NCBI GenBank assembly: GCA_025449905.1
Contig: JANWIN010000012.1
Location: 1-45,317, forward strand
Direction: 5' to 3'
DNA: 45,317 nucleotides
From: Candidatus Saccharimonadales bacterium
GTDB lineage: Bacteria > Patescibacteriota > Saccharimonadia > Saccharimonadales > JANWIN01
The notes below the pieces were generated by a model. It worked only from the letters and a program-made list of their open reading frames with translations, was not told where the DNA came from and made no database searches. How positions within the stretch are numbered: the first letter of the stretch is position 1; every line of letters starts with the position of its first letter. This document shows positions 26,656 to 30,599 of the stretch, one piece after another. Made by a program: the position numbers and the translations under genes.

Positions 26656-27124
26656 AATCCTCCGAATTACCGAATATTTAATTAGCGGTGGAGCTTACTT
26701 CTGGTCCGGCTATTTGGCCTTTTTTGTTGGCGATCAAATCTTAGGACTTAATCTATGGTGGGCTAAGCTGGCAGCTAATATTTTTGGCTGGGTGGTTAAC
26801 TATTTACTTCAGCGCTTCTGGGTCTTTAAAAATCCGGCTCTAGCTAAGCATAAAACGGAAGTCACTAATCGCTACATTATTATTACTCTAGCTGATTTTG
26901 TTATTGATTATTTGATAGTTAATTTCTTAAAAGGCTTAGGTATTAGTCCCTACATTGGTCAATTTGTCTCCAGCGCCTTCTTTACCCCCTGGAATTATCT
27001 TTGGTATCGCTTTTGGGTCTTTCCAGAAAAATTTGTTAAACGTCGACCGGCTCATCAGGGCCCGGCTCGGATTGCCGCTCATCGAGCCCATGGACATAGT
27101 GCTTATCACAAAATGAGGGCCTAA
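26624..27124 (+). CDS. GtrA-family membrane protein
   Basis: ISGGAYFWSGYLAFFVGDQ...NIFGWVVNYLLQRFWVFKN; start revised to ATG 26624 inside the upstream ORF end. Confidence 0.8.
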   Translation: MLKLRKKQKREILRITEYLISGGAYFWSGYLAFFVGDQILGLNLWWAKLAANIFGWVVNYLLQRFWVFKNPALAKHKTEVTNRYIIITLADFVIDYLIVNFLKGLGISPYIGQFVSSAFFTPWNYLWYRFWVFPEKFVKRRPAHQGPARIAAHRAHGHSAYHKMRA

Positions 27125-27582
27125 TGCCTAAAGAAGACGTAATACGACCAACTAAAAAACAGCGCGAACTACTTAGCTATATCGAAGAATTTATTGCCGC
27201 TAAAGGCTATAGCCCTAGCTACCGCGAGATTATGACGGCACTGAACTATAATTCGGTGGCAACAGTCGCTCTGCATATTGATAATTTAATAAAACGCGGT
27301 CATTTAGAAAAGCGTGATCACTCAGCCCGTTCACTAGAGGTTGTTGATCCTAAAACCCGAGCAGCTGTTAAAACTAACGTCGTAAGGCCGGAACAAGAAA
27401 AATGGCTGGTTGAAAAGATAACTTACTTTTTTGACCAAGCTGAACAGGGTGCCAAAACGCCGCAGGCCAAAATTGACGAACTTTATGTTTTAATTGGCAG
27501 CTTAAGAATTTTAGGACTGGAGGGTGCCGCCCAAAGCTTCATTGCTAGGCTTAGCGAGATTAAAAAGAAAGCTGGCGAATGA
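27124..27582 (+). CDS. LexA N-terminal wHTH protein lacking a recognisable S24 peptidase domain
   Basis: PTKKQRELLSYIEEFIAAKGYSPSYREIMTALNYNSVATVALHIDNLIKRGHLEKRDHSARSLEV; only 152 aa, no Ser-Lys protease region. Confidence 0.8.
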   Translation: MPKEDVIRPTKKQRELLSYIEEFIAAKGYSPSYREIMTALNYNSVATVALHIDNLIKRGHLEKRDHSARSLEVVDPKTRAAVKTNVVRPEQEKWLVEKITYFFDQAEQGAKTPQAKIDELYVLIGSLRILGLEGAAQSFIARLSEIKKKAGE

Positions 27583-28376
27583 ATATTCTGCAGGCGCTAA
27601 TTTTAGGTGTCACCCAAGGATTGACCGAATTTATTCCAGTTTCCAGTTCCGGGCATTTGGTGATTGCTCACCGGGCTATGGGCATACCAGCCGGCGGACT
27701 GACTTTTGATGTGGCTCTGCATCTGGGGACACTGATTGCTCTTATAATCTTTTTCTACCGGGATCTTTTAAGCCTGGCCTCAGCACTTTTTAAGAAGTCA
27801 GCTCAAACGCATTTAGCTTGGCTGTTAATATTGGCAACCATACCTGCGGTTATAGTTGGCGCACTACTTGAAAGTGCAGCCGAAGATCAGTTCCGTTCTA
27901 TTATTTTGGTTTCAATAAATCTGGCTGTTGTAGCAGTTATTATGCTGGCGGCCGAACACTACTATAAAAATAGCTTTAAAAAAACAAGTCTTAACAAGAC
28001 TTCAACCGGCCAAGCTATTGGTATGGGCATGGCTCAAGCGGCGGCTATTGTGCCTGGTGTTTCACGCTCCGGTGCGACAATTACGGCTGGACTATTTGCT
28101 GGCATGGACAGGGTAGCCGCGACGCGCTTTTCGTTTCTGCTGGGAATTCCGATTACTTTCGGGGCGATTATGAAAGTACTGCTTAAAAACTCGAGCCTAG
28201 AACAAATCAATGGCGAACTAGGTATTTTTATAGTCGGTATCATAGCGGCCTGTCTTACTGGACTCTGGGCAATTCGATTTTTACTGCGATATTTGGCTAA
28301 ACACCCACTAAATATTTTTGCTTATTACCGAATTGGGCTGGCGATAGTTGTATTAAGCACAGTTTTGTTTTTTTAA
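27579..28376 (+). CDS. uppP: Undecaprenyl-diphosphatase
   Basis: QALILGVTQGLTEFIPVSSSGHLVIAHR; AAAIVPGVSRSGATITAGLFAGMDRVAATRFSFLLGIPITFGA. Confidence 0.95.
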   Translation: MNILQALILGVTQGLTEFIPVSSSGHLVIAHRAMGIPAGGLTFDVALHLGTLIALIIFFYRDLLSLASALFKKSAQTHLAWLLILATIPAVIVGALLESAAEDQFRSIILVSINLAVVAVIMLAAEHYYKNSFKKTSLNKTSTGQAIGMGMAQAAAIVPGVSRSGATITAGLFAGMDRVAATRFSFLLGIPITFGAIMKVLLKNSSLEQINGELGIFIVGIIAACLTGLWAIRFLLRYLAKHPLNIFAYYRIGLAIVVLSTVLFF

Positions 28377-28400
28377 AAAATTACTACATCCAAAATAAAT

Positions 28401-28560
28401 ACGCGGTGCTATCATTAAGACTTAACATCAAAATCGCTGGAAGCAGGTGAAATTCCTGAACTGTGCCGCAACGGTTAAAGTCCGATACAGCCTAAAAGTC
28501 TCCCGAGCAGGAGCAAAAACCCGCGCGTTTTGCCCTTGCTCAAAAAGCGAGGGTTTTTAA
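28401..28560 (+). promoter_or_regulatory. Cobalamin riboswitch (compact, cobalamin-II-like) with expression platform
   Basis: GCTGGAAGCAGGTGAAATTCCTGAACTGTGCCGCAACGGTTAAAGTCCGATACAGCC: conserved GGTGAAATTCC hairpin, CCGCAAC motif, B12-box-like AGTCCGATACAGCC; closing stem AGACTT(28418-28423)/AAGTCT(28496-28501); GCTG/CAGC core helix. Confidence 0.87.
28533..28558 (+). terminator. Riboswitch-associated intrinsic terminator
   Basis: CCCTTGCT-CAAAA-AGCGAGGG-TTTTT; the 5' arm can alternatively pair in a long hairpin with GAGCAGGAGCAAAAAC (28505-28520). Confidence 0.85.
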
Positions 28561-29994
28561 TTGAACGAAACAACTGAACTAACACACCTACCTTTATCTC
28601 CAGAGCATCTGGCCAACCCTGCATACTTACCAGTTGATGCTATTCCAGAATTGGCTTCTGCTCGCTTAATAGCTCGCCGAGATGCGTATGAAATTGTGGA
28701 GCAAAATCGTCAGCACCTGAGAGATGGGGACTTTAAGGCTGTATCAATTCCTGTAGATGCACTAGGAACGGCCCGTAGAGTAACACTTAATCGCCATATA
28801 TACGGTGAGGATAGCTCACAGGCAAGGGAGTCTTTTGAGGGTCTAATTTTAGATTCCGAACGCCTCCTAGGTGAAGCAGCCAGGAAAAATACTTATGAAT
28901 ATTTTAGGCCGACTAAACAAACTCGTGATACTCAATCTGGTGATTATCTATCCCATGGTCAATCAATCTCAGTTATGACTGAAAAAGGATTAACACCTGT
29001 TGCCGAAGCTGAAGAATTAGAACGCCGAATTAACGAATATGTTGAAGAAGCGACCTACAAAGCTATAGGAGGAATGGTTATTGACGAATCAGTTACGGTC
29101 AGAACAATATCTGAATGTACAGATTGGGCAATCGAAGCACACCGGCGCAATTCGAAGGGGGGACACGGTGGCTATGTGCCGGAAATTGAGAAATTCATGG
29201 TTCGAGATGTCAAGTTTGATCCTATTACGCATGATCGATATGAAGAACAATTGGGTCTCTCTGGCATTTTTATTAATCATGAAGTTATAACTGAAACACT
29301 AAGACGTCACAACATACAAAAAGAAAATATAAGTAAAACTGAAGTGCACAGTACTCAAATGTTGGCAGATAACGATCTCGTAGATTTTGTGGCTGAACTT
29401 GACGAAGTTGCTAGTGAAGTACATGGTTTAGATATTTTTCTCGGCGAAGTTTTAACAGAGGGGCAAACCAAGGACTACAATCATGTGAGGCAAGAAGCTG
29501 AAGGTCGCAGACAAAACCTTGCTCCTAAGCCAAAAAAGTTAGCTGAATTTATTATGGGGTTAGAGCTGGAGAACACTGATGAATGGGTGGCTCTAGGACT
29601 TGTCGAAGCGCGAGTTAAAGAAATGCTGTTCGATATTGCTGGTGAAGACTACTCAGCCGCATCAATTATATTCGATCAACAAACCGCTGCAGGTTTGCAG
29701 GAAGTAGCGTACCTACGCTCAAATGGTCTTATGGAAGAAGCTCAAACGCTTTTAGCTGACGTAAAAACACAAGCGCCAGCTCCCGGCTATTGTGGCGCGG
29801 GTAGCTGCGGACTAGAATCAATTAATCAAAATAGTAACGAAGCCAAAAAAATGAAAGAACTAGGCTTAGATTCTAAAGATGCGTTGAGGGACACAGAACG
29901 ACATTGTAGGGGATGCGGTAAAAAAGAAGTGGTTTATGATCTTAAGAGTAATAAAAAAGCCTGTCTTGCTTGCAATGCAACTGCCAAATTTTAA
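28561..29994 (+). CDS. Uncharacterised 477-aa protein under riboswitch control; C-terminal Cys-rich ribbon
   Basis: TTG start immediately after the riboswitch terminator (in-frame TAA directly before, no closer ATG); C-terminus GYCGAGSCGLE...HCRGCGKKEVVYDLKSNKKACLACNATAKF. Confidence 0.85.
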   Translation: MNETTELTHLPLSPEHLANPAYLPVDAIPELASARLIARRDAYEIVEQNRQHLRDGDFKAVSIPVDALGTARRVTLNRHIYGEDSSQARESFEGLILDSERLLGEAARKNTYEYFRPTKQTRDTQSGDYLSHGQSISVMTEKGLTPVAEAEELERRINEYVEEATYKAIGGMVIDESVTVRTISECTDWAIEAHRRNSKGGHGGYVPEIEKFMVRDVKFDPITHDRYEEQLGLSGIFINHEVITETLRRHNIQKENISKTEVHSTQMLADNDLVDFVAELDEVASEVHGLDIFLGEVLTEGQTKDYNHVRQEAEGRRQNLAPKPKKLAEFIMGLELENTDEWVALGLVEARVKEMLFDIAGEDYSAASIIFDQQTAAGLQEVAYLRSNGLMEEAQTLLADVKTQAPAPGYCGAGSCGLESINQNSNEAKKMKELGLDSKDALRDTERHCRGCGKKEVVYDLKSNKKACLACNATAKF

Positions 29995-29996
29995 AT

Positions 29997-30599
29997 ATGA
30001 GTAAAATTGGGATTTTTAGCGGCAGTTTTGATCCGATCCATGGCGGGCATTTAGCTTTTGCTTTGAAAGCAGCTCAAGAAGCGAATTTAGATAAAGTTTA
30101 TTTTTTAGCTGAGCTAAAGCCACGCCGTAAAACTCATCCTACTCATTTTGCCCATCGCCAGCAATTACTAAAAATAGCCACTAAGCCATTTCCAAAACTC
30201 GGCGTTTTAGAATTGCCTGACAAAACATTTAGCACCAATAAAACCTTGCCCAGACTTAAGGCTAAATTTCAAGACGCTCAACTTTATATGCTTCTAGGCT
30301 CTGACTTAGCTAAGTATCTACCAAATTGGCCGCACATTGATTTACTTCTTGCTGACATGAAATTGATAATTGGGGTTCGAAAACTGGACAGTGTCCAAAA
30401 AGTTCAAAAAAATCTAGGCAAACTTAAAAAAGTCCCCAAAGGCTCATTAATTATTACTAGCCAGCTAAGTGATGTTTCTTCAAAACAAATTCGTGAATCG
30501 CTAAAGAAAAATAAACCTGCTCATGGCCAGCTGAAAAGCACCGAGACTTACATTAAGAAAAACTGGCTCTATTCGGCTATTTCAGCTGATAATTTATAG
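29997..30599 (+). CDS. nadD: Nicotinate-nucleotide adenylyltransferase-like
   Basis: MSKIGIFSGSFDPIHGGHLAFALKAA; MLLGSDLAKYLPNWPHIDLLL; ISSxxIR-like SSKQIRESL; 2 nt downstream of the previous stop. Confidence 0.85.
   Translation: MSKIGIFSGSFDPIHGGHLAFALKAAQEANLDKVYFLAELKPRRKTHPTHFAHRQQLLKIATKPFPKLGVLELPDKTFSTNKTLPRLKAKFQDAQLYMLLGSDLAKYLPNWPHIDLLLADMKLIIGVRKLDSVQKVQKNLGKLKKVPKGSLIITSQLSDVSSKQIRESLKKNKPAHGQLKSTETYIKKNWLYSAISADNL

Follow-up and report, generated by a model that had tools for sequence, protein, structure and literature searches.

An uncharacterised gene at positions 28561 to 29994 of the window (the whole 45,317-nucleotide stretch analysed, from a Candidatus Saccharimonadales genome) lies beneath a cobalamin riboswitch aptamer, and this pairing of aptamer and gene is conserved among relatives within the order. 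In three genomes the gene (hereafter the target) shares an operon with DUF4430 and DUF6580 genes behind the same aptamer, and the genomes of the order that were tested rely on NrdJ as main ribonucleotide reductase, with CobA and NrdR encoded as well. The reading we prefer, held tentatively and with somewhat less than even confidence, is that the target is a cytosolic B12 acquisition or handling protein of Saccharimonadales-type episymbionts, switched off by AdoCbl and feeding CobA and NrdJ. More generally, the family is probably part of how these bacteria cope with B12 shortage, since their DNA building blocks are made mainly by a B12-dependent enzyme.

Saccharibacteria live as episymbionts and have very small genomes, and in the open literature searched we found no description of how they obtain or use B12, nor any of this family or of Saccharibacteria B12 riboswitches (most subscription journals and preprints were not covered). 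A one-copy, B12-controlled family of unmatched fold offers a testable entry point to B12 use in this group; it would also mark B12 shortage as a major signal between episymbiont and host, and provide a genetic handle on that relation.

The riboswitch leader and the protein beneath it

The features of the target locus within the window are as follows.

27124..27582, + strand: LexA-type helix-turn-helix protein without peptidase domain (PF01726, E 6e-15, residues 10-69 of 152)
27579..28376, + strand: UppP/BacA, the immediate upstream gene (PF02673, E 4e-73)
28382..28397, + strand: weak NrdR-box-like half-site TACTACATCCAAAATA (PWM only 2.6 bits)
28407..28415, + strand: possible extended -10 element TGCTATCAT (read from the sequence; an inference)
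28422..28498, + strand: cobalamin (AdoCbl-II) aptamer (Rfam RF01689, model R1, covariation)
28500..28513, + strand: CTCC-CGAGCA-GGAG hairpin, a P13/L13-like switch element
28532..28554, + strand: hairpin GCCCTTGCTCAAAAAGCGAGGGT followed by a T run (intrinsic-terminator-like scan site, local fold)
28561..29994, + strand: target protein gene (477 aa, TTG start)
28873..28875, + strand: Glu105 codon (invariant, 118/118 superfamily members)
29791..29793, + strand: Cys411 codon (first Cys of CGAGSC; invariant in 114/114 aligned)
29905..29973, + strand: C449-x2-C452 ... C468-x2-C471, a probable C-terminal zinc ribbon
29997..30599, + strand: NadD-like nucleotidyltransferase, the next gene downstream (TIGR00482, E 4.5e-31; its mechanical ORF starts at TTG 29970)

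An initial sequence-only reading had described a 477-residue reading frame of unrecognised family under a cobalamin riboswitch, and both halves of that description held. The aptamer begins 45 bp beyond the end of the UppP/BacA gene. Its RF01689 match is real, although taken alone it only just clears the gathering score of 36.5, with 36.6 bits and a window-wide E of 3.8e-5. An order-specific covariance model, R1, places the aptamer at 28426-28496 with 74.9 bits (E 4e-17); R1 was built from 17 family aptamers, the window's own among them. Nine of its 15 pairs have changed on both sides, with 97.6% of cells paired (0/500 shuffles). In its core, its pairs, its P13-like loop and its placement in a leader the element is like the AdoCbl-II and other cobalamin riboswitches of Rfam (RF01689, RF00174, RF01482), from which it differs in that most family aptamers score below the cut-offs and the gene beneath them is not a known B12 gene.

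Downstream of the aptamer core, a GAGCA loop is present in 110 of 118 leaders, compared with 15% of random windows. The Shine-Dalgarno-like GAGGG at 28549-28553 lies in the 3' arm of the last leader hairpin and ends 7 nt before the start codon. Folding of the whole leader was no better than that of shuffled sequences (z -0.49), so the evidence for an expression platform comes from the local hairpin and from comparative data. At the position equivalent to TGCTATCAT, upstream of the aptamer, relatives carry TGCTAnACT; a sigma-70 scan did not find this extended -10. At loci L038, L040 and L042 the GAGCA loop falls within the first codons (ATGTTAGCCGAGCAGCTA), where folding of the aptamer would cover the translation start. 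This placement fits an OFF switch, both AdoCbl binding and the direction of switching being inferred. At L134 and L227, as at these three loci, the CCGAGCA loop motif lies within the opening codons of the gene under control, and at all five the coding sequence is thus constrained by RNA pairing.

The target protein had no match better than E ~0.1 in Pfam, NCBIfam, PHROGs or PDB sequences, and PADLOC and PHROG searches with the family returned only scattered single-member matches. AlphaFold gave confident models for the window protein (pLDDT 87, pTM 0.82) and for a distant family member with 103 sequences (pLDDT 92, pTM 0.84); in both the core is alpha/beta, the second half helical, and a small Cys ribbon is present. 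The protein had been called largely helical and charged; the helical C-terminal half stands, while a merely helical protein does not, given the alpha/beta core and ribbon of the model. Foldseek comparison of both models with the PDB, and of the window-protein model with viral structures, gave no match at E <= 0.001, so that the structural check proposed at the outset revealed no characterised-family fold. The fold is new with respect to the PDB only, predicted cellular structures being outside the comparison. No cobalamin-binding motif or fold was recognised, the protein belongs to neither the CobA/BtuR nor the PduO family as judged by Pfam, and no RNR barrel or R2 ferritin-like fold was found among Pfam families or PDB folds. 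No signal peptide or membrane segment was apparent in the family sequences inspected, and the protein looks cytosolic.

Conservation in the protein is highest in the two C-terminal cysteine clusters, which lie at residues 411/416 and 449/452/468/471 just as first described. Within the ribbon C449 and C468 are conserved in 100% of the family, C471 in 98% and C452 in 86%; Arg155, Glu/Asp159 and Asp281 are near-invariant elsewhere. The zinc ribbon suggested earlier is borne out as a pattern, with two conserved CxxC knuckles and strands predicted at the ribbon. Zinc binding itself is unproven and inferred from the sequence pattern. Several identities were considered for the protein and set aside. 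The weak matches to ribosomal zinc-ribbon proteins, the only ones the ribbon gives, and those to CARF or methyltransferase models are scattered or confined to the Cys ribbon; and an eRF1/VLRF1-like release factor, raised by an 'HGQS/GGQS' stretch, is contradicted by a non-conserved Gln and the lack of an eRF1 fold match.

Median identity within the family is 16% by multiple alignment, as against 75% for NrdJ in the same 16 genomes. Family medians range from 16 to 25%, and we prefer the multiple-alignment values, as pairwise identities hold unreliable extremes (7.7 to 100%) from free end gaps. The family evolves very fast, unlike most cofactor-handling enzymes.

Spread of the family and its aptamer

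Among 393 genomes of the order, pairwise search detected the family in 20, one of them the window's own (G000; 632,826 bases in 13 contigs), at identities of up to 51%. At each of the 20 loci a cobalamin aptamer lies immediately upstream on the same strand; many of these aptamers score below the Rfam cut-offs yet fall within the cobalamin clan (E 1e-6 to 0.9), and R1, run over 322 kb around family genes, recovered exactly these 20 sites and no others. A profile that includes distant members extends the family to 79 of 393 genomes; of the 56 loci added in this way, 54 have an aptamer at E <= 0.01, one of the two exceptions ending at a contig boundary. Across the order R1 has matches in 177 of 387 genomes, which represent 113 of the 155 genera sampled, and only rarely more than one match in a genome.

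We also approached the family from the RNA, starting with 54 aptamers whose genomes gave no protein match to the profile, a selection biased against the family. For 45 of them the gene directly downstream is nevertheless a superfamily member. Profile iteration places 118 of 128 in the superfamily, with the invariant Glu, Cys and ribbon criteria met; none of the shuffled controls matched, and no other ORF out of 304 fell below E 0.06. The seed profile alone reaches only 7 of the 54 RNA-first members at E 1e-3, and outer superfamily members therefore rest on iteration; their membership is supported, at the level of aligned residues, by Glu105, Cys411 and the C-terminal Cys ribbon. An RNA element can in this way reveal a gene family that diverges too fast for protein-similarity search.

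Because the association of aptamer and gene recurs across relatives, chance can be excluded as its origin. The B12 link proposed for this uncharacterised protein had been open to refutation by a match to a B12-unrelated family or by homologues without the riboswitch, and neither occurred. With the sensitivity of the first profile, no member turned up beyond the order; a contig scan with a 6-sequence alignment returned the same Saccharibacteria genomes only, and IMG/VR and phages held no viral homologues. Apart from the target family and the DUF4430 loci described below, the aptamers at L186 and L229 lead into long acidic proteins assigned to neither, that of L229 having no Pfam match.

The target usually sits between a LexA-type helix-turn-helix gene, often accompanied by UppP, and a NadD-like gene. 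The cluster of the LexA-type 152-aa neighbour, which lacks an S24 peptidase domain, is found near the target in 18 loci, and the NadD-like cluster in 15. This conserved synteny, together with the absence of viral relatives, indicates that the target is a chromosomal and mostly vertically kept gene and led us to reject a phage origin.

Shared operons, promoter boxes and B12-dependent ribonucleotide reduction

Most of the remaining aptamers head a gene for a DUF4430-type small protein followed by one for a DUF6580 membrane protein (among others at L134, L176, L191, L196, L215, L216, L220 and L227; PF14478, DUF4430, was checked in L134 and L176, and PF20221, DUF6580, in L134, L176, L191, L216 and L227). 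At L134, L191 and L227 aptamer, DUF4430, DUF6580 and target form, in that order, one operon with overlaps or gaps of <= 13 bp, the third gene matching the target at E 2e-85, E 1e-7 (cut by the locus end) and E 5e-55, respectively. In genome G141 one aptamer precedes the target (L205), and another heads a DUF4430-type gene together with a further small gene (L215). Vertebrate transcobalamins carry DUF4430 at their C-terminus (PMC4350170), from which a B12-capture role for this domain is likely by inference; on this analysis the DUF4430-DUF6580 proteins are likely a B12 capture and transport pair in Saccharibacteria. They are like the target in their aptamer, their promoter box and, in three genomes, their operon, and unlike it in being exported or membrane proteins, the target being cytosolic-looking and without a Pfam domain. 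The shared operon is the strongest functional hint for the target that we have. In G000 itself, tblastn over the full sequence found neither DUF4430 nor DUF6580.

The promoter box in question is a palindrome, AATACTAYATNTAGYGT, often present in family promoters ~80 nt upstream of the aptamer core, and often before DUF4430-DUF6580 operons. The pattern ACTAYATNTAGYGT has 10 matches in 16 genomes, 8 of them at an aptamer promoter, and its reversed control has 4. The palindrome resembles in sequence the published NrdR box (consensus acaCwAtATaTwGtg; PMC4009431), which is matched at >= 12/16 positions by 60% of family promoters and 2.9% of background. Conversely, with the family matrix 10 of 11 nrdR-nrdJ upstream regions score at roughly the 95th percentile of background or higher, and 5 of the 11 above every background window. 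NrdR promoters have a pair of boxes at helical-phase spacings of 14-17 or 24-27 bp (PMC12051234); we found one clear box per family promoter, without looking systematically for a second. The window promoter has only TACTACATCC, whose PWM score of 2.6 falls short both of the target-promoter median, 19.9, and of the 99th percentile of background, 8.65. With no more than a half-site there, NrdR control would be a property of the family and cannot be claimed for the window gene. Elsewhere in the same genome, a strong NrdR box, TCCCTATATATAGTGT, lies upstream of nrdR-nrdJ beside ftsZ-like and ftsA-like genes (G000:C1:10142; L265:10142).

All 16 genomes tested encode a large NrdJ-type reductase, that of G000 scoring 1362 bits to NF005122 (vitamin B12-dependent ribonucleotide reductase), and the NrdR gene adjoins the NrdJ gene. 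Neither the class I small subunit (PF00268) nor PduO was found in the tested genomes, whereas CobA/BtuR scored above cut-off in 14 of 16, G000 included (G000:C9:4316-4855). A second RNR-like protein occurs in three genomes, which makes NrdJ the main but not in every case the sole reductase; class III enzymes were outside the search. At L259 (G100:C1:650998-652341) a kinase-like gene adjoins the gene for a second ribonucleotide reductase-like protein, which is short (587 aa) and perhaps phage-derived. The genomes of family f35 (G055, G066, G097, G035, G081 and G093) have no CobA above cut-off and mostly no aptamer; in the absence of NrdJ data, they may have left B12 use. Two identities for the target were dropped: a novel adenosyltransferase, weakened by the separate CobA, and a class I R2-like subunit, for which there is no fold match and which would belong to genomes lacking PF00268.

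Proposed role and competing readings

We propose that when AdoCbl is sufficient the aptamer and P13-like loop would shut, with the hairpin ahead of the start codon stopping transcription or hiding the ribosome site; when AdoCbl is low, the target protein would be produced, with the NrdR box of many relatives adding dNTP shortage as a second signal. The protein might act on incoming cobalamin by capturing it, reducing it or stripping off its upper ligand, or might hand it to CobA, which would make AdoCbl for NrdJ. B12 handling, a function for the invariant Cys and Glu, and transfer to CobA and NrdJ are all inferred here, as is the OFF direction. BtuM and CblD are cysteine-based B12 handling proteins, and the target's invariant cysteine could act on cobalamin in a like manner, an inference only; the target has no sequence or fold similarity to either. 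Among the functions listed in the sequence-only reading, a cobalamin handling factor is favoured because three genomes place the target third in the aptamer-DUF4430-DUF6580 operon, its biochemical function remaining unproven. Against B12 handling stand the lack of a cobalamin fold, the fast divergence, and the absence from G000 of DUF4430, DUF6580 and a full NrdR box.

A gene repressed by B12 can equally replace a B12 enzyme, and the B12-independent backup raised early on remains possible because the main ribonucleotide reductase is B12-dependent. The target might thus keep up the dNTP pool without the NrdJ cofactor, by reducing or salvaging nucleotides or by AdoCbl-free activation of NrdJ. 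In Streptomyces, nrdABS has an NrdR box and a B12 riboswitch before a B12-independent reductase, in an organism that also has class II NrdJ. Family promoters often combine the same two signals, likewise beside a class II NrdJ as main reductase, and the invariant Glu105 and Cys411 with near-invariant Arg155, Glu/Asp159 and Asp281 would suit an enzyme. The target nonetheless has no reductase domain, the genomes tested lack the class I small subunit, no RNR, R2 or kinase fold was matched, and such enzymes are conserved, whereas family identity is 14-16%; the same control also governs putative B12-uptake genes whose operon the target shares. We consider such a bypass unlikely, and its narrower form, in which the family itself provides B12-independent ribonucleotide reduction or dNTP supply, or activates NrdJ without AdoCbl, through a fold absent from the PDB, very unlikely.

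The zinc ribbon, fast divergence, NrdR box and LexA-type neighbour would also suit a nucleic-acid- or protein-binding brake or regulator that slows replication, division or NrdJ at B12 and dNTP shortage; the DUF4430-DUF6580 operons point instead toward uptake or handling, and a simple brake would hardly need a well-ordered domain of 400 residues with invariant Glu and Cys, so that we judge this reading about as probable as a bypass. Delivery of the protein to the host cell or envelope, there to gain B12 or nucleotides, accords with an episymbiotic lifestyle and would explain the divergence (median identity 16-25%, against 75% for NrdJ), but without an apparent signal peptide or membrane segment, and with no data on secretion, we regard it as improbable. 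Least probable of all is that the gene is functionally unrelated to B12, the switch being a relic or driving the downstream NadD-like gene, usually the nearest neighbour and only a few bases off: aptamer and loop are kept under covariation, and where gene order changes (L036, L043 and the DUF4430-DUF6580 operons) aptamer and target remain together, the aptamer tracking the family and not its neighbour.
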